This document shows, in pieces, positions 3,262 through 36,268 of a stretch of DNA of 38,394 nt. The notes beneath the pieces were generated by a model that was not told the origin of the DNA, did not search any database, and saw only the letters and a list, made by a program, of their open reading frames with translations. A program made the translations under genes and the position numbers. The stretch comes from a virus. Position 1 is the stretch's first letter. Every line of letters starts with the position of its first letter. The DNA is taken from IMG/VR virus record IMGVR_UViG_3300042923_000166, positions 1 to 38,394 of that record; one strand, given 5' to 3'.

Positions 3262-3678
3262 TCAGAATGGGAGATCGTCATCTTCCTCTTCCATCGGATA
3301 AAAATCATCTACTGGCGGTGAATGTTGTATGTTTACATTGTTACTTATATCTCGGTTATCGCTCTTACTACCTAAGAATGTAATCTCCTCAGCGATAACC
3401 TCTGTTACATATCTCTTTGTCCCATCATTAGCCTGATAATTCCTTACTTGTAATCTTCCATATACTGCAATTTGACTACCTTTAGCACAATACTTAGCTG
3501 TGTTCTCTCCTTGATTGCCCCATGCTACTATTGGGATGAAATCTGCATCCGTGTCCCCTGTTTTGCTTTTGAATCTTCGGTTCACTGCTAGTGTGAAACT
3601 CGCTACTGGCGTTCCTTGTCCAGTATATTTGAGTTCAGGATCCTTAGTTAATCTTCCTACTAATACAACCTTATTAAT
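3262..3678 (-). CDS. ssb: Single-stranded DNA-binding protein (SSB), probable AUU start
   Basis: A 138-residue OB-fold SSB: the N-terminus NKVVLVGRLTKDPEL and the core FTLAVNRRF are family hallmarks, and the acidic C-terminal tip DDDLPF recruits partner proteins. It binds ssDNA during phage replication and recombination. SSBs normally begin MNKV; here that position is ATT (3676-3678), nine bases after GGGAG and overlapping the upstream TAA. The only conventional candidate, TTG at 3687, touches the GGGAG with no spacing and adds three atypical residues. I therefore favour an AUU start, though TTG cannot be excluded. Confidence 0.9.
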   Translation of the reverse strand: MNKVVLVGRLTKDPELKYTGQGTPVASFTLAVNRRFKSKTGDTDADFIPIVAWGNQGENTAKYCAKGSQIAVYGRLQVRNYQANDGTKRYVTEVIAEEITFLGSKSDNRDISNNVNIQHSPPVDDFYPMEEEDDDLPF

Positions 3679-20799: not shown

Positions 20800-22629
20800 T
20801 TAGTAATTTCCTCCAAGACGCGATTGAATAAATACGCGTAGTATTAAATCAGCCTCTATCCTAGCCAATCCATTAGGTAATATTTCAACCTCATGTCTAC
20901 CTCTTGTAATCTTTCCGCTGCTCTCTTTATTCATATAGTTGACTAGATTTATTCTGTCACCTGTTGTGGAGTCGTGTGATATTAAATTTCCATCCACTTT
21001 AATCGCTACGCTAGATGGCGTTGTTTCAAGTTCATAAATACCATGTTTAATCCCATGTTCATGATTTGGCAACGTTACTTCGTGACTATGATCAGGTGTA
21101 TTAAATGAATGACTATGCGCTGGAATGTTTACACTATGTGTATGAGCCGGTATATCAATGGTGTGAGTATGTTCATATGAAGCCCCTGAGATAGAAAAAG
21201 TATGAAAGTGTCCACCACCAGTGTATTCAACTGCGCCACTTGTCCCACCGGACACAGAATCTATGAAACCGGTTGGTGCTATAACGGTACTATTCCCACC
21301 AGAACTTGATGTTTGAGCACTGCCACCACCACTATCTGTTGACTTACTTGTACCTCCACCACTACTGGTAGAACTCACAGTTGCCCCTCCACCATCAGTA
21401 GCTTGACTGTATGCCCTAAAAGCCTTCGTCCTAAAAGTCAATTCGCAAGTGTTTACGTTAACTACATCATCATCAATATAAAATGGGACAATCGCTGGAA
21501 TCACACTATCACAATTATCTTGGTAGGTGAAGTTGATTATATTAGTTGCCCCTTGGGAATAGGCGTCATTAACTTGTTGCTTTCTCTCGATATCAGTCTG
21601 TGTAGTGGCCATGTCGTTAAGTTTATTATTTATGTCATAACTTACATCGTATTCTTTCGACAAATCTGTAATGTTCTCGCCAATAATTCTCCCATAATAA
21701 TTTTCATCATCAACTATAATTCTAGTTACACCATTCAAAATTTTTCTTTCCTGAGCAAATTCAGGCAATATTGAAAGGTCTGTGGAGTCCAAAGGAAAAC
21801 TTACTTTAGGTTCTTTCCATTGTTCAAGCAAAGCTTGCGCATTATCCTTTAAAGTTTGTGCATCCTCAAAACGTGAGTCAATCCATATATAAGACCGTTT
21901 ACCCCACTTTACAATTGACGCATCATCCTTAAGATAATTAAGTCCACCATTTACACTTTCAATTGTTACTTGATTAACTCCCTCGCCTGAACCTTTTGGA
22001 ATTAGATAATTAACTATGTCGGTAGGGTCTGATACTTCGCTAAAATCTATCATATCCTTTCCCCATCTAATTTCAGCCTTTACAACGTCACTAGCTTGGA
22101 TTAGATTTAATGTCCAAGGATAATTTTCTGTATCGAATGTAAACTCGTATGGCTCGCTAAAAGGCTTAGGGATTGATAGGATAGGTGCTAAGAGTCCATT
22201 CTCATTCTCGAAAGAGTAACTAAAGTACCTTGTAAAATCTATTTGACCTAATACCCACCTCTCAGTTTCTTGTAGGCTTAAAATGTATTCTAAGGCTTGT
22301 CTTGTAGTATAGTTTGTGTATTGGTGGTAGCCATTCATTACATCATCGAGCAATGTTGCTAATACGTGTTCGCAAGTATATGTGATACTTTCATTTGTAT
22401 CGTTTATTCGAGTTTCCGTAGGCATTATCCTATACAGTCCGTAATATCGCTCACTCTCTCCGTATATAGCTACATAATTCATGTGTGAGCAAAGTTCGTT
22501 CTTTGGGTCTTTTTTGAGTAAAGAAAAAGAGGATTGCCAGATTGAATTGACTGTCCTCTTTATTGATATGTTGTATGCACTTTCTAGGATACCTAGTTCT
22601 TTTTGATTTTTATCTTTTACGATTAGTAT
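20800..22629 (-). CDS. Tail-tip protein Tal / antireceptor with HxH repeats, probable AUA start
   Basis: About 609 residues. The first about 350 match the minor-structural/endopeptidase-tail family (LIVKDKNQKELGILESAYN, then CEHVLATLLDDVMNGYH, then WTLNLIQASD). A Gly/Ser linker follows, then five 9-residue His-x-His repeats (HTHTIDIPA and variants; 21053-21211 includes an extra HFH), like the iron-binding needle tip of T4 gp37. It sits at the tail tip and probably contacts the cell. The open frame reaches 22632 but has no ATG/GTG/TTG before 22482; the AUA at 22629 is nine bases after GGAGG and gives the family N-terminus. A start at ATG 22482 would delete 49 conserved residues. Confidence 0.85.
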   Translation of the reverse strand: MLIVKDKNQKELGILESAYNISIKRTVNSIWQSSFSLLKKDPKNELCSHMNYVAIYGESERYYGLYRIMPTETRINDTNESITYTCEHVLATLLDDVMNGYHQYTNYTTRQALEYILSLQETERWVLGQIDFTRYFSYSFENENGLLAPILSIPKPFSEPYEFTFDTENYPWTLNLIQASDVVKAEIRWGKDMIDFSEVSDPTDIVNYLIPKGSGEGVNQVTIESVNGGLNYLKDDASIVKWGKRSYIWIDSRFEDAQTLKDNAQALLEQWKEPKVSFPLDSTDLSILPEFAQERKILNGVTRIIVDDENYYGRIIGENITDLSKEYDVSYDINNKLNDMATTQTDIERKQQVNDAYSQGATNIINFTYQDNCDSVIPAIVPFYIDDDVVNVNTCELTFRTKAFRAYSQATDGGGATVSSTSSGGGTSKSTDSGGGSAQTSSSGGNSTVIAPTGFIDSVSGGTSGAVEYTGGGHFHTFSISGASYEHTHTIDIPAHTHSVNIPAHSHSFNTPDHSHEVTLPNHEHGIKHGIYELETTPSSVAIKVDGNLISHDSTTGDRINLVNYMNKESSGKITRGRHEVEILPNGLARIEADLILRVFIQSRLGGNY

Positions 22630-27171: not shown

Positions 27172-30100
27172 CGTACTACCACCCCCATCTGCCTTGCTCC
27201 TGATTTATTTAATGAATTTAACGCTATACTCATATCTCCTGATGTGGCAGTTGCAAATTCTCTACCATTTATACTTAATGTAATAGGTCTATTGGCTAGC
27301 GAAGTTATTGCACTTACTAAACTGCCTAGATCAAGTCCACCAGTGCTAGAAGATCCATTTATTGATGTATTTACACTTGCATTTATAGGGTCTAGGCTTA
27401 TTTCTTTATTAAGTACTCCCATTGCTCTATTAACATCGGCTGCACTATTCTCGATCCCTATTGCAAGTCCAGCACCTAACATCATTCCAACTTCATCCCT
27501 AAAAACTCTAGATGGAGATTTAATGCCATACTTATCTTTAACCCACTTCATCGCACCACTAACAATTCCGCCTAATGCACCCGACACATTGAAACCATTG
27601 TTCGCTATTCCGAGTGAAATTCCATCTACTAAAGCCTTGCCTATTGAGGTAGTCCCTGTGGATTTCTTTTCACCAGCAGTTTTTGCATCACCAACTACTG
27701 TACCCATTGCGTTTGATGCTTGATAACCATTCACTGATATTCCACTACCTAAATTAGTAGCTGTTGCCATACCGGTTTTTAGTCCTATCCCTGCTAAAGG
27801 TTGAAGCTTGCCATCTACACCAATCTTCATATTATCGGCTGCTCCTGTAACTCCCGGAGTACCTTGTTGTAATTTTTCCAACATTCCAAAAGCCATGCCA
27901 CCGGCTGCTGCTATGCCATTTTCGCTCATTTGTCCAGTTTCGGTCGTTACCCCATCTTTAGTTAATCCAGCTTGCTCTATTGCTACAGCTGTGGCTTGTG
28001 CGGTTTTCTCTAGCCATAGTCGGTTATACTCTGTAAGTTGTTCGCCAGTCATTCCATTTAAGGCTGCGATTTCGGTATATGCTTCGGGTCCCATGTCTCT
28101 TAACTCTTGCAATAGTCCTTCGTCTATGCCTTTTTTCGCTAATTCGGTAATATTAGTAGCCCACTCTGCAACCCCAGTTACTTGAGATCTAAGATTCTCC
28201 ATTAATGTTTCACTTGATACATCGGTGCTTTTCGAAAACTCGTCAAATAATCCTGTTGAGTTATATATACTATCACTCATTGATTGTACTGCTTCGGCGG
28301 TTTCAGCTGACATTGTGTTCACTGACTCAGTTACTTGACCGGATGCACTCTCAGCCGAACTTCCTAATTCGCCATATTGTGCACCATTGGCATTTAATTT
28401 ATCTGTGTTATCGCCTACATATTTTGAGGTTGAGTCAAATTCAGCGCCTAGACCTTTCATTGTGCCTTTGGTTTTCGCTATCTGTTCGTCTAGCGATTCC
28501 ATCTGATCGTTATAATCTTTTCGCTGACTAGAACTTAAATGGAAATTCTTCTCGCTTAATGCGTTTAGTTTATCTTGGATTTCTCCTTTCCGTTCCATTT
28601 GCTCGCTTAGATTTATTTCTGCTTTTGCCATATCCTCAGTTATACCAATAAGCTTTTCTTGAGATACTTTAACTTTGTAATATTCTAAATTGGCTCTCGT
28701 TACTTTTTCAATTTCACCATGATTTTTATTTAAGTGTCCAGTTTCCTTGTCTATTTGTAGATTTAACTCAGGCATTAATTCGTTTAATTGCCCTACGATA
28801 GACACCATCTGAGCCTTTTCAGAGTTAGATTTATTGGTCTTGTCTGCCAACTTGTATAATTCATCAGTAAGAATAGATATGGAACCGTACTCTGATTCAA
28901 CCGCTTTTGTAGAGTCTTTTCTAGCTTGAACATTATCTTTAATTGTTCCGGTCAATGCTTTAGATTTTTCATTTAACGCATCAGTTGCACTTGATGATTT
29001 ATCTGCATTAAGTGCATATATTGCCAATCCTCCGACTGCGAGTCCAACCGCTGCCGCCACTAACCCCATAGGACTAGCTAACTGTACAACATTTAATGCT
29101 GCGGTTGCTCCGGCCGCTATTGTTGTTTCTGCTGCATAAGCTGCCATTGCTGCTTGGGTTAATTCAATGCCGGCAACTATTACACCCCCTGCTTTAAACA
29201 CCGCAAGTCCAGTAGCTATGCCAACAATACCACCTATTACTAAATCAGAGTTATCAATAACCCACTCAAGACCATCAACCAAAACCGGCAACGTTCCTTC
29301 ACTAAAATCTTTAACTCCATCCGATACTTTCTGCATGGCTCTATTTAAAGATGGTGCAACCGCAGTCGCAATATCAGACATTGCTTCACGCATATCATAT
29401 TGGGCATCAGCATTAGCAATTAATTCTTTATTATTTTCTCTATATTGCTTATTAACATCAGCAAGTCCAGTAGATGCAAGTACATCTAAAATATATGCTT
29501 GCTTTTCTGCTTCGCCATTACAAGCTGCTAACCCTTTGTCAAAGTCAGCTAAGTTATATCCTAACCTCTCAAGCATTTCTCCAAATGTTCCAACTGCTTT
29601 CCCTGTGGCAAGTGTTTCTTGTAGTCCGTCGGATAAACCTTCTATCTTCATCGTGTCGGGAAATTTTATTACTGCACCAGATAAGGCTTCTACTGCTTTT
29701 GTAAGCCCTTCACCTTTAAATCCGGCAGCCATTAAGTTTGATAAACCTTCTATATTTGCATCTGTCTCGCCTGTTATTGCATCAAGTTTTTTGAGTTCTC
29801 CTGATACTCCATCGATTCCAGTTCCAACATCTCTAGCATTCTGTTCGAGTTTAGAGAAATCTTGCCTAAATTCTTTGGTACTTTCTGTGACTCCATATAG
29901 TGCAGCACCCAAGCCAACAACCGCACCCACCGCTACTTTGCCAAAGCTAGATAGTCCACCCTTTACAGTATCCAACTCTTTGCTAAGGTCTTTCGTTTCC
30001 TTTTTGGCATCGTCTAACTCATCACTAAAAGATTTTGTTTCAACCGTACTTTGCTTGACTTGTCTACCATATTGGTCAATTGATGTTGCGACTCCATCTG

Positions 30101-30482
30101 TAGATTGCTTAGCTTCTTCTAAATATTTGTCATTCGTTTGGAGTTCTCTATCGAGTTTTACAAGTTCGGTTTCCGCTTTATTTAAAGACGCTTGCCACTC
30201 TTTAGTCTTGTTGTCGTTCTCTCCGTATTGTTGTTCTGAGTTAGCCAACGCTTTTCTAAGTGCTTCAACTTTATCTTTTTGTGTGTCAAATTCTTTGCTT
30301 AATACATCACTTCTTTTAGTTAACGCTTGCATGGAGTTTGCGTTATCACCAAATTCAGCTGACACTAGACCCACTTCACTTTTTAGTACTTTTAGATCTT
30401 TGTTTATATTCGTTATGCTTTGTCTAAATTCTTTTTCTCCATCTAATGCTATTCCTGCGCCTATCGTTCCTTTTTTAGTTAT
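27168..30482 (-). CDS. Tape measure protein, probable AUA start
   Basis: About 1104 residues: long coiled coils (10-190), hydrophobic membrane-active segments (about 195-210 and 400-475), more coiled coil, and a Gly-rich C-terminal region (KYGIKSPSRVF). It sets tail length; at about 0.15 nm per residue the tail would be roughly 165 nm. A GTG at 30491 overlaps the GGAGG site; the AUA at 30482 is eight bases after it and matches the spacing in the portal gene. It then starts MTKKGTIGAGIALDGEKEF, as expected for the family. Confidence 0.9.
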   Translation of the reverse strand: MTKKGTIGAGIALDGEKEFRQSITNINKDLKVLKSEVGLVSAEFGDNANSMQALTKRSDVLSKEFDTQKDKVEALRKALANSEQQYGENDNKTKEWQASLNKAETELVKLDRELQTNDKYLEEAKQSTDGVATSIDQYGRQVKQSTVETKSFSDELDDAKKETKDLSKELDTVKGGLSSFGKVAVGAVVGLGAALYGVTESTKEFRQDFSKLEQNARDVGTGIDGVSGELKKLDAITGETDANIEGLSNLMAAGFKGEGLTKAVEALSGAVIKFPDTMKIEGLSDGLQETLATGKAVGTFGEMLERLGYNLADFDKGLAACNGEAEKQAYILDVLASTGLADVNKQYRENNKELIANADAQYDMREAMSDIATAVAPSLNRAMQKVSDGVKDFSEGTLPVLVDGLEWVIDNSDLVIGGIVGIATGLAVFKAGGVIVAGIELTQAAMAAYAAETTIAAGATAALNVVQLASPMGLVAAAVGLAVGGLAIYALNADKSSSATDALNEKSKALTGTIKDNVQARKDSTKAVESEYGSISILTDELYKLADKTNKSNSEKAQMVSIVGQLNELMPELNLQIDKETGHLNKNHGEIEKVTRANLEYYKVKVSQEKLIGITEDMAKAEINLSEQMERKGEIQDKLNALSEKNFHLSSSQRKDYNDQMESLDEQIAKTKGTMKGLGAEFDSTSKYVGDNTDKLNANGAQYGELGSSAESASGQVTESVNTMSAETAEAVQSMSDSIYNSTGLFDEFSKSTDVSSETLMENLRSQVTGVAEWATNITELAKKGIDEGLLQELRDMGPEAYTEIAALNGMTGEQLTEYNRLWLEKTAQATAVAIEQAGLTKDGVTTETGQMSENGIAAAGGMAFGMLEKLQQGTPGVTGAADNMKIGVDGKLQPLAGIGLKTGMATATNLGSGISVNGYQASNAMGTVVGDAKTAGEKKSTGTTSIGKALVDGISLGIANNGFNVSGALGGIVSGAMKWVKDKYGIKSPSRVFRDEVGMMLGAGLAIGIENSAADVNRAMGVLNKEISLDPINASVNTSINGSSSTGGLDLGSLVSAITSLANRPITLSINGREFATATSGDMSIALNSLNKSGARQMGVVVR

Positions 30483-30494
30483 TGTTCTCACCTC

Positions 30495-30710
30495 CTAGAA
30501 AGAGACAATATTTTCTCTTGGTTTTCCTTCGATTATTAAATCCGAATAACCTAGCTTATTTCTTTTTAAACTTTCTTCTAAGTCGAAATTATCTTTGTAT
30601 TGTCTAAATAATGTAATTATTTTACCTATTGTCATTTCCCAAACTTCTTCTTCTTTATATCCTAATAACATTTTGCCTACATAAATCAAGCGAGCAACAT
30701 TTACTTTTTC
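30495..30710 (-). CDS. Tail chaperone T region, made by -1 frameshift (gpGT)
   Basis: An open frame with no ribosome site of its own, beginning inside the end of the gpG gene. It encodes about 70 residues (VNVARLIYVGKMLLGYKEEE and so on, ending at TAG 30495) typical of the C-terminal part of gpGT chaperones. A slippery GAAAAAG (30704-30710) just before the gpG stop would fuse it to gpG. The fusion product helps assemble the tail tube around the tape measure. A TTG at 30689 is possible but unlikely as a start. Confidence 0.7.
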   Translation of the reverse strand, partial: EKVNVARLIYVGKMLLGYKEEEVWEMTIGKIITLFRQYKDNFDLEESLKRNKLGYSDLIIEGKPRENIVSF

Positions 30711-31108
30711 GTTTGCTCGCTCATTTCGTTTGGGGAAGTATCGTCACTCTTTGGCATCGTACCGTTAAACGACAACAACATTAAAGCTGATATTAGTTTA
30801 GATGTTGAATTGCTTAGAATTTCAGTTCTTATATATTCCTCAGACAAATCTTCCCATCTATCATCTGGATTATATTTGTTGTGCAATCTTACATCTTCAT
30901 TCAACACCACCGTAAGCATGTGAGCCAACATTGCATATGCTTTCTTTTTCTTTTCTTTATCTTCTAATTCAAATATTTCATTTATAATGCTGACAATGTC
31001 ATTGTCATAATCCTCTTGTAGTTGATCTATAACATTCACATTAAACAGTAAATGTCTTTCTTTACCGTCAAATTCTAATACTTCTCCAACTGGTTTTAAT
31101 ATTCTCAT
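30701..31108 (-). CDS. Tail assembly chaperone gpG-like
   Basis: 135 residues, mainly helical and acidic (FELEDKEKKKKAYAMLAHML). Its place between major tail protein and tape measure, with a -1 frameshift extension, identifies the gpG/gpGT pair. It begins at ATG 31108 after GGAGG. The last codons ACG AAA AAG TAA hold the slippery site. Confidence 0.75.
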   Translation of the reverse strand: MRILKPVGEVLEFDGKERHLLFNVNVIDQLQEDYDNDIVSIINEIFELEDKEKKKKAYAMLAHMLTVVLNEDVRLHNKYNPDDRWEDLSEEYIRTEILSNSTSKLISALMLLSFNGTMPKSDDTSPNEMSEQTKK

Positions 31109-32498: not shown

Positions 32499-32816
32499 CT
32501 AACTACATGTTAACTCCATTATTTCGTTTTGTTTTACATAGGTTCTAATAATTTCATATATTGCACCTTCGTACTCAACTTTATCTGCATACAAAGCTTT
32601 ATTTCCAACCATGTGTTTAGTTAAGTCAAAGTCAAACGAATGCACCTCAAATCCGATTGTTGGCTTGTACCCAGATTGCAAAGCTGAATAAAACTCTGTT
32701 CTTGCAACTGATTTCACATTCACACATACTTCTGTTTCGGTTTTGGTTTCAATATCGAACCCATCAGCATCTTGTGTTATTGTTGTATAGATTAATTTAG
32801 CAATATCTTTCCACAT
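32499..32816 (-). CDS. Head-tail adaptor (stopper) protein
   Basis: 105 residues, beta-barrel pattern with EVCVNVKSVARTEFYSA and YEIIRTYVKQNEIMELTC, matching the phage head-tail joining family (SPP1 gp16-like stopper). Its leader GAGGTGATCTAA before ATG is identical to the leader of the preceding connector gene, where ATT takes the place of ATG. Confidence 0.75.
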   Translation of the reverse strand: MWKDIAKLIYTTITQDADGFDIETKTETEVCVNVKSVARTEFYSALQSGYKPTIGFEVHSFDFDLTKHMVGNKALYADKVEYEGAIYEIIRTYVKQNEIMELTCS

Positions 32817-33107
32817 TTAGATCACCTCAACTGGTGCAACCGTATATTCTTGAGATAGCGTCAGATGGGTTTTAAGGCTTGTATAAGATGCTATATATTT
32901 TTCACTATCTGCATTGCCTGAACCAAAATTAGCCTTGCTATACAGGATTACTGCCCTCTTTATAAGCGGGTCACTATCCACAACCTTGGCTTCTAGTACG
33001 CCACTTAAAATTAGGTCGGCTTTTGCAGAATCGATTATATCTTGAACATCATCATTGAAATAAGTTGTTGATATTCGTAATGATTTTTTAACATCATCTA
33101 AGATAAT
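32817..33107 (-). CDS. Head-tail connector (HK97 gp6-like), AUU start
   Basis: 96 residues, all-helical: LDDVKKSLRIS, DDVQDIIDSAKADLILSGV, then DPLIKRAVILYSKANFG, a clear gp6/connector-1 pattern that forms the ring under the portal. A stop codon (TAA) lies directly before ATT 33107 in frame, and the first ATG/GTG/TTG afterwards is near residue 43. So translation must begin at ATT or another unusual codon. GAGGTG lies six bases before ATT. Easily missed by standard gene finders. Confidence 0.85.
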   Translation of the reverse strand: MILDDVKKSLRISTTYFNDDVQDIIDSAKADLILSGVLEAKVVDSDPLIKRAVILYSKANFGSGNADSEKYIASYTSLKTHLTLSQEYTVAPVEVI

Positions 33108-33133
33108 TTAGATCACCTCTTTTATTAAGAAAA

Positions 33134-33149
33134 AGGGACAAAAGTCCCT
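33134..33149 (-). terminator. Internal terminator after major capsid protein
   Basis: AGGGAC/GTCCCT stem, 4-base loop, followed on the minus strand by TTTTTC. It follows the capsid gene and should reduce transcription of connector genes relative to capsid. Confidence 0.8.
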
Positions 33150-33154
33150 AAATA

Positions 33155-34366
33155 TTAAGCGTGTTTCTTGGTTATTGTTACAAGTGAATTTTTATCTACA
33201 ACTTTACCATCTACAAGCATGATAGCTTTTGTTACTTCGTCGTCAGTGTCATTATCTTCGTAACGCTTTAAAGTCATATTGTAGTTAGTGTTCAAAATAT
33301 AGTCTTTAAAGTTAAATAAGAAAGCTACAACGGAAGTTGCTACAGGCGCATCAACTAAAGAATCCATGTAATCAACTAAGACAACTGCGCGACCTAGCAG
33401 TGTACGTTCTGGACGACCATTAATGCCATAATTCACTCTTGCGATAGGTTGTTTTTGTGAATCCACCATTCCGATAAACCTCATAAACGTTTTCTTTGTC
33501 ATTACCCAAAGAGCTTCTGTCTCATAAGCCAAAGGTAATGCAGCTTCGGCATCGATTAAAGTTTGATATTCTGGTTTGCCTGCTAGTGTAATATCTACAT
33601 TTTGACCAACAACTACAACCTCAGTTAAAACTCCTTTAGGCTGTCCGACACCTGAACCACTAATAATAGCTTGCTCTATCGCCTTAATCATCGCTTCAGT
33701 AACATTGTTAATTAAAGTTGCTTCAAACACTGGTAATGAAGTTACTCCAGCTTCTAATGAAATCGAAACAGCGCAACGTAATTTATAATAGTTAAAAGTA
33801 ATTACGCCAGTTGTTTTCTTTTGCTTGTCACTTCCTGCACCCTCTACGACCCATGTTGCGACTGGTTTTACAGTAGATGTAGGGATCGACATTCCGCCCT
33901 TGTAAGCTGTACGAGTAACTAAAGGCAAAATCATTCCAGTAGATTCTAGCTTTTCAATAATTTTTTCTAAAACAGTAGTAGGAATAACTGATCCTATATC
34001 AGTTGTTTTTGTATTAGCATCTACATTTAGGAATTTTTCTGGAATTGCAGAACCTTTTAAAACGTTATTCATAAACGCTTTTCTATATTCTACTGATGCA
34101 AACATATCATCGTTTAACACGCTTTCTGTCGAATCAATTACTGTGCCCACAATATCCACCCCTTTATTTTGTATATCTGTGATCTTCGTACTACCTTTCA
34201 GGGCGTTTAAATTAGCATTAGCCAACTTTACTTCTTCCCATTGGTTGTCTAGTGTTTCTACTTCTTTCATTTTTACATTTGATTCCTCAATTTTCCCCTC
34301 AGCTATAAAAGCCTTAGCCTCATCTAGTAAAACGTTTCTTTGTTCTAAGTATTTTTCAAAAGTCAT
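33155..34366 (-). CDS. Major capsid protein (HK97 fold)
   Basis: 403 residues. An N-terminal coiled-coil scaffold-like delta domain (about 1-100: MTFEKYLEQRNVLLDEAKAF), then the HK97 shell domain (SVIPTTVLEKIIEKLESTG, GGMSIPTSTVKPVATWV, GSGVGQPKGVL). The upstream protease removes the delta region during maturation. ATG lies nine bases after GGAGG. Confidence 0.95.
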   Translation of the reverse strand: MTFEKYLEQRNVLLDEAKAFIAEGKIEESNVKMKEVETLDNQWEEVKLANANLNALKGSTKITDIQNKGVDIVGTVIDSTESVLNDDMFASVEYRKAFMNNVLKGSAIPEKFLNVDANTKTTDIGSVIPTTVLEKIIEKLESTGMILPLVTRTAYKGGMSIPTSTVKPVATWVVEGAGSDKQKKTTGVITFNYYKLRCAVSISLEAGVTSLPVFEATLINNVTEAMIKAIEQAIISGSGVGQPKGVLTEVVVVGQNVDITLAGKPEYQTLIDAEAALPLAYETEALWVMTKKTFMRFIGMVDSQKQPIARVNYGINGRPERTLLGRAVVLVDYMDSLVDAPVATSVVAFLFNFKDYILNTNYNMTLKRYEDNDTDDEVTKAIMLVDGKVVDKNSLVTITKKHA

Positions 34367-35055: not shown

Positions 35056-36268
35056 TATTTATCACCCCCTTTAATGCCTTTTTAATCTCATTTAACTTAT
35101 TATTAACCTCAGTTACTACCGCAGTATCTAAACGTCTAACTGGGACATCTCCACCTTGCACTGGTGCCAATCCTCCAAGTATCTTCCTCCACTCGTTCGG
35201 AGTCAATGCGCCCCTATCTACCATTTGTAATAAATTTAACTTAGTAGACATTGAAGCATATTGAAGGTTTGATGCTTCAAATATAATTGAGTTTCCAAAA
35301 CCTCTTTCTCTCCTGGTGAATAGTTTTCTAGTAAATTCACCACTTAATTGCATTGCCAAAGGTTCAATTTCTGACTCATAGTAAGAGTTCCATTCATCTT
35401 CTGAGTATTTAGATTGAACTATCTTCTCATTAGTGCCAAAGAACGAATATATCCTTACAGTAGTTCTGTCCATCTGCGGGGCATTGGGAACATAGTCATT
35501 GGGACTAACTTGTTGTGCATCTACTTTAGCATCAACCGCAGCAGCGCCTACCGACGTACTATCTATATTTAAATAGTTAGTGACGAAATCTTCTGTTTGC
35601 TTTTTCAGATCCTCAGGCCTTAGTGTTTGATTAAATTTAAGTAACCATTTTATGATATTAGAGTTTCTGATTGCTTTAACTATTCCTTGATCTGTTGTAT
35701 TAACTATTTCCATGAGTGGAAGCAAAGCATCTCTGGGACTTTCTCCGAATATATCATTTTCATTGTAATCTTGGCGCAAATGGATAATATCTGTATATGG
35801 ATAAGTAACCATCTTCCCATTTCTCATAGTACACTTCAAAAACAACTCGCCTTGGCTATTATACTTAGCTTCTGCACCCAAACAAGGCACAGGATATAAC
35901 TCATTAGGATAGCCATTGTCATCCCTGTTGATGTATATAAAAGCGTTGTTGTTTAACTGTAACTGAGTAGTGATTTTCTCTTGCATCATCTGTCCTGTCA
36001 TGTATGGGTTGGGTTCTTCTAGTAGAAATCTCATATACACGTCAGGATTTACCTTTAAATCTGTTGATCCATCGGGTTTAAGGGTTTCTCTGATGTGCTT
36101 AGCTACTAATTTGCCTACCGCCTTTGATTTAGGTCTTATACATGCTCTTACAATGTCACTTTTATATAACTTGCCATTCCAGGCGTAATATCCGTTACCA
36201 TTATCGCTAATCATTTCAAATCTAGTCACAGAGGTGCTTTTATTTTTAAACCTATCTAGTATGCCTAT
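35042..36268 (-). CDS. Portal protein, probable AUA start
   Basis: 408 residues of the HK97-type portal family (GILDRFKNK, RACIRPKSKAVGKLV, ITTQLQLNNNAFIYI). It forms the dodecameric ring for DNA entry and binds terminase. A GTG at 36277 is in frame but lies within the GGGAGG ribosome site. The AUA at 36268 lies eight bases after GGAGG, the same geometry as in the tape-measure gene, and gives the usual short N-terminus before LDRF. Confidence 0.9.
   Translation of the reverse strand: MGILDRFKNKSTSVTRFEMISDNGNGYYAWNGKLYKSDIVRACIRPKSKAVGKLVAKHIRETLKPDGSTDLKVNPDVYMRFLLEEPNPYMTGQMMQEKITTQLQLNNNAFIYINRDDNGYPNELYPVPCLGAEAKYNSQGELFLKCTMRNGKMVTYPYTDIIHLRQDYNENDIFGESPRDALLPLMEIVNTTDQGIVKAIRNSNIIKWLLKFNQTLRPEDLKKQTEDFVTNYLNIDSTSVGAAAVDAKVDAQQVSPNDYVPNAPQMDRTTVRIYSFFGTNEKIVQSKYSEDEWNSYYESEIEPLAMQLSGEFTRKLFTRRERGFGNSIIFEASNLQYASMSTKLNLLQMVDRGALTPNEWRKILGGLAPVQGGDVPVRRLDTAVVTEVNNKLNEIKKALKGVINIEES

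Follow-up and report, generated by a model that had tools for sequence, protein, structure and literature searches.

Where does translation of a phage gene begin when its frame holds no ATG, GTG or TTG near the Shine-Dalgarno (SD) sequence? The question is raised by the connector (neck) gene of the virus in IMG/VR record IMGVR_UViG_3300042923_000166, whose whole stretch of 38,394 nucleotides, the window, is analysed here. The gene occupies 32817-33107 on the minus strand and comprises 96 codons. Its protein matches the profiles PF24829 (E 7e-16, residues 2-89 to 1-105 of 105) and phrog_5223 (E 8e-33). The gene order is portal-protease-capsid-connector-adaptor, so that the connector lies between the major capsid gene (33155-34366, minus strand) and the head-tail adaptor gene (32499-32816, minus strand), as expected for the family. 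Relatives were drawn from IMG/VR and phage records, with capsid and portal queries used to gather loci (L numbers below); a Dit query yielded no additional loci. Among named phages, the closest relatives are those of Clostridia and Bacilli. An exact-pattern search of viral and genome contigs found no second copy of the connector locus, and a sequence search for solved structures gave no match.

The start of the connector gene

The 5' end of the connector gene on the minus strand reads AAAAGAGGTGATC TAA ATT ATC TTA GAT GAT GTT AAA. As an earlier note on this DNA had described, the TAA (33110-33108) stands directly before the ATT (33107-33105) in the connector frame, which is open from there to the TAA at 32819-32817. 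The upstream TAA excludes every upstream in-frame start, including a GTG within the SD. The first in-frame ATG, GTG or TTG is a GTG at 32981, which is codon 43, in line with the earlier note's estimate of about 43 codons, and the 42-codon gap falls within conserved sequence. The extended SD, GAGGTGATC (33111-33119, minus strand), is complementary to the 16S tail, with a calculated duplex energy of about -16 kcal/mol, and the ATT follows its GAGG at the usual spacing of 8 nt. Because of the TAA just before it, the extended SD at the usual spacing, the canonical starts of homologues and the distance to the next NTG, the connector very probably starts at AUU, as first proposed in the earlier note. 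In a 96-nt fold the stretch 33099-33119 is predicted to form an RNA hairpin in which the connector SD pairs with the AUU and the next bases; the prediction is weak, and shorter stretches fold otherwise.

The leader of the connector recurs before the adaptor gene, where the same 14 bases, GAGGTGATCTAAAT, precede an ATG. These two leaders are the only sites of GAGGTGATC on the minus strand. The identity, which the earlier note had reported, is largely explained by the complementarity of both copies to the 16S tail, which marks the shared leader as an extended SD and not an unexplained repeat.

Alignment with homologous connectors places a canonical start at the corresponding position in 94 of 96 distinct proteins. 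The start codons are ATG in 85, GTG in five, TTG in four, an uncertain CTG in one (L142, which has a weak SD and is divergent) and ATT in this phage. Outside this phage a connector match was obtained in 86 loci, and these have a canonical start at or beside the N-terminus. The layout of SD, stop and start is common to many relatives, as in L021 and L052, in which GAGGTGATTAA is followed directly by an ATG at the position of the ATT. Connectors of the same family, PF24829/phrog_5223, precede the adaptor gene in Terrisporobacter phage TPDSL_ph2 and Paenibacillus phage PG1; homologues in this family start with ATG, rarely with GTG or TTG, whereas the gene studied here has ATT.

The earlier note had also claimed that the conserved N-terminus begins at the ATT. 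Homology does begin at residue 2, but some homologues place their methionine opposite the next codon, ATC (33104-33102, minus strand). Translation from this codon, giving MLDDVK as in several homologues, is quite unlikely. The methionines of L001, L010 and L014 align with it and ATC is also near-cognate, so that homology by itself does not separate ATT from ATC by one codon. The spacing favours ATT, as ATC lies 11 nt after GAGG compared with 8 nt for ATT; the ATG of the adaptor gene, behind the same leader, occupies the ATT position, and many homologues with a TAA directly before the start use the first codon. The practical meaning would be unchanged if ATC were the start.

Two further routes into the connector frame are hardly to be expected, although the sequences that they need are both present: termination-reinitiation on the two-codon mini-ORF GTG ATC TAA directly ahead of the ATT, and -1 slippage at A AAA AAT by ribosomes from the ATGATG at 33097. 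Neither of their starts has an SD at a workable distance, and GATGATGTTAAA is merely the coding sequence of the conserved DDVK motif. Entry by readthrough of the capsid stop was rejected, since the capsid gene is in a different frame.

Probable near-cognate starts elsewhere in the phage

At least five other genes, missed in the earlier reading, seem to begin with near-cognate codons behind strong SDs: those for the portal, the tape measure, Dit, Tal and SSB, all on the minus strand. This shared trait is stronger evidence that the AUU start of the connector is real, and comparison with relatives argues strongly for the identity of the near-cognate starts in this phage.

The putative AUA start of the portal gene lies at 36266-36268, behind the SD AAGGGAGGTGA (36284-36274). 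The leader runs AAGGGAGGTGAGAAAA and then ATA GGC ATA CTA GAT, and a relative with 85% identity reads TTG GGA ATA ATA. In the tape measure gene a candidate AUA (30480-30482) follows the SD AGGAGGTGA (30496-30488), as AGGAGGTGAGAACA and then ATA ACT AAA AAA; the nearest relative, L196, has AAGGAGGTGAGACA ATG GCA AAG AAT at the same place and a similar protein downstream, with one base fewer between SD and start. The Tal-like gene (PF06605/PF18994, phrog_4311) probably begins at an AUA (22627-22629) behind the SD AAAGGAGGT (22646-22638). It reads AAAGGAGGTCTTGACTT and then ATA CTA ATC GTA, preceded immediately by TGA CTT in the same frame (TGA at 22635-22633). Among its relatives, L173 has ATG at the same place, and in L178 an in-frame TGA is likewise followed by ATA.

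The Dit gene, with the SD GGGGGTGG (27186-27179), reads GGGGGTGGTAGT ACG ATA ACG CTA GAT GGA TAT, compared with GGGGTGGTTTT ATG ATA ACA CTA GAT GGA TAC in L176. The ATG of L176 stands opposite the ACG at 27172-27174, which is therefore the probable Dit start; in L173, L176, L179, L181, L183 and L184 an NTG lies one codon ahead of ATA or ATT. For SSB, identified by homology, position 1 of PF00436 falls on an ATT (3676-3678) behind a slightly imperfect SD, GGGAGTTGATC (3692-3682), in the context GGGAGTTGATCGTT ATT AAT AAG GTT GTA; the TTG given as start in the open-reading-frame list falls within that SD. NTG alternatives are absent for the connector, Tal and Dit.

Two overlaps were observed beside these genes. 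At 3674-3678 the TAA stop of a small upstream gene overlaps the ATT of SSB (TATTAA), which suggests translational coupling. In the region 30495-31108, the gene following the tail protein gene (30701-31108) is without an SD and start of its own and overlaps that gene, the pattern expected of a frameshifted tail assembly chaperone pair.

The portal and tape measure genes have an in-frame GTG inside the SD, at -3. If translation began there, only the connector, Tal, Dit and SSB would be near-cognate, a reading that we regard as unlikely. The spacing of the portals with ATA or ATT (L051, L058, L062, L063, L088, L091, L094 and the window, at 36268) is 8 and brings the GTG of GGAGGTG into frame; in most NTG portals the spacing is 7, one base fewer. 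The one-base difference from L196 in the tape measure spacer points the same way. An SD for this GTG would abut it, however, leaving no room for the helix, and in L091 a TAG closes the frame between GTG and ATT. Moreover, only ATA or ATT, never just any codon, takes the place of the NTG, and other families often have SD spacing 8. The argument is inapplicable to the connector, in which GTG ATC TAA ATT places a stop before the ATT. Initiation at the near-cognate codons of the portal and tape measure genes thus remains the preferred reading.

Whether such a set could arise by chance was addressed with a codon-blind scan, in which all frames were scored for SD strength regardless of start codon. 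A gene was counted as an orphan start when a strong SD was followed at the right distance by a near-cognate codon, with no NTG available instead. Orphan starts were found in 5 of 45 genes of this phage and in 22 of 1205 genes in 58 related genomes or loci (one-sided Fisher p 0.002, a descriptive value as several loci are related or overlapping). The contrast is underestimated because the controls include genuine cases. The five codons found by the scan are ATT, ATA, ATA, ATA and ACG, each one base off ATG, and all five genes are structural.

Six near-cognate sites make a sequencing error or a single dead gene unlikely. One G-to-T difference would be sufficient to turn a true connector ATG into ATT, and the data are one assembled virus record, but an error of sequencing or assembly is extremely unlikely: five further genes have a near-cognate codon at the SD-correct place, no frame is broken, and comparable starts occur in cultured relatives. 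Errors striking start codons alone six times are not credible. Silencing of the connector by a start-codon mutation in a decaying prophage is likewise very unlikely. The phage is temperate, with an integrase, but its structural genes are full length, and the excess of third-position differences from relatives suggests purifying selection on the portal and connector genes. Many of the other genes with near-cognate starts are essential, and ATA or ATT portals are found repeatedly in other phages.

A change of genetic code, with AUA or AUU reassigned to methionine, was rejected. Internal ATA codons align with isoleucine in 63% of cases and with methionine in 2%, and both AUA and AUU denote isoleucine inside genes. 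A search of the phage for known RNAs, an initiator tRNA among them, found none.

Start codons in related phages

The prevalence of weak starts varies across the genes of this phage group. UUG is the commonest portal start, and capsids begin almost exclusively with AUG. The 110 portal starts comprise 52 TTG, 32 ATG, 18 GTG, five ATA and three ATT, in contrast with 87 ATG, two GTG and one TTG among the 90 capsid starts (p 3e-25 for weak starts in portal versus capsid, from counts that ignore relatedness). The 15 Tal starts consist of seven TTG, four ATA, three ATG and one ATT. For portal and Tal, some relatives share the AUA of this phage. Protease genes display candidate ACG starts behind GGAGGTGA in L018 and, more ambiguously, in L048, L053 and L056.

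A comparable context is conserved in the YqbQ/NlpC hydrolase gene of Clostridioides difficile phages, in which GAGG is followed by TGA TTT ATA ATT, with the TGA in frame and no NTG start. The cases are the cultured phages CD2301 and JD033 and, in IMG/VR, L124, L125, L130 and L144; at the loci L189 (10863-12608) and L191 (601-2372), as at these four, the SD before this motif is strong. In GenBank the JD033 gene is annotated from an internal start about 65-70 codons late, and the CD2301 gene is not annotated. Across the unannotated 5' part, CD2301 and JD033 differ at 2, 0 and 8 sites by codon position, and the stretch is therefore coding. No equivalent TGA-ATA context was seen in the region of CD1801 (L192), which is accordingly not counted among the cases. 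The hydrolase is a myophage baseplate-region gene, unlike the connector.

Proposed mechanism and role in virion dosage

It is highly probable that the connector, together with no fewer than five further genes of the phage, uses near-cognate starts with long SDs, most likely setting a low output of mostly low-copy virion proteins. From the sequence we infer initiation at the connector AUU, methionine as the first residue, and the rate and role of the start. The extended SD (GAGGUGAUC) would pair with the 16S tail and position the 30S subunit on the AUU (33107-33105). The initiator fMet-tRNA would then pair with the first two bases and tolerate the third-base mismatch at a reduced rate, so that the protein would begin with methionine and its output would be a fraction of the AUG level. 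Strong SDs would likewise serve the AUA, AUU or ACG starts of at least five further genes. The proposed role is a low, fixed output of proteins present in few copies per virion, AUG being kept for the capsid gene and the majority of the others.

A siphophage virion contains some 3 to 12 copies of each of the portal, connector, tape measure, Dit and Tal proteins, and hundreds of the capsid protein. These copy numbers suggest that the weak starts may set dosage. An intrinsic-terminator-like hairpin (33134-33149, minus strand) between the capsid and connector genes points to dosage setting too; it recurs in the leaders of L003, L016 and L044 despite different sequence. Dosage does not account for every case: SSB does not belong to the low-copy virion proteins, and the genes for the adaptor and tail terminator, which are low-copy, have ATG. 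Relaxed initiation in the host could explain the weak starts instead of dosage setting. The connector shares with the class of near-cognate starts behind extended SDs the lack of a usable in-frame NTG near the SD and a long, properly spaced SD-antiSD pairing, but AUU is not conserved among its homologues, as no other connector has it, which, with evidence from one virus record, counts against the best explanation.

AUU and AUA starts are known in a handful of bacterial genes. In Escherichia coli, infC (encoding IF3; AUU/AUA) and pcnB (AUU) combine a near-cognate AUN start with a strong SD and lowered output, as proposed here. These genes are chromosomal and infC is autoregulated by IF3, whereas here several virion genes of one phage genome are involved and the product, a virion connector, gives no basis for feedback. 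Within the Bacillota, Staphylococcus aureus uses AUU in cvfC1 and AUA in ccpN, infC and citZ, with an extended SD for cvfC1, ccpN and infC; AUU and AUA reporters gave about 10% of AUG, and ccpN up to 30% in rich medium (PMC13009471). Those are host genes with experimentally mapped starts, unlike the phage structural genes read here from sequence. In Listeria, where infC starts with ATT and rnhC with ATC, reporters ranked ATG above ATA above ATT, and protein output was reduced in the AUN cases, which include rsbW start mutants (PMC13068326). The Listeria genes are bacterial regulators, in contrast to the virion dosage proposed here. An AUU start is also functional in Clostridium butyricum and C. 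sporogenes (PMC11040787).

The open literature yielded no description of a phage structural gene that begins with AUU or AUA, which is weak evidence of novelty. A broader possibility, put forward tentatively and at somewhat less than even probability, is that a lineage of Bacillota phages uses near-cognate starts (AUA, AUU and ACG, with UUG as a milder form) and extended SDs systematically in late and some early genes. Such starts may be an evolved dial for virion stoichiometry or may exploit a host with relaxed start selection, and gene finders restricted to NTG would miss essential genes or give them wrong starts. Should the six starts of this phage be used as proposed, near-cognate codons would be able to carry essential morphogenesis genes, such as those for the portal, connector and tape measure. 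The six would provide a natural test set for the compensation of weak codons by extended SDs, and missing or mis-started genes in phage annotation would be explained, as the usual gene finders overlook such starts.
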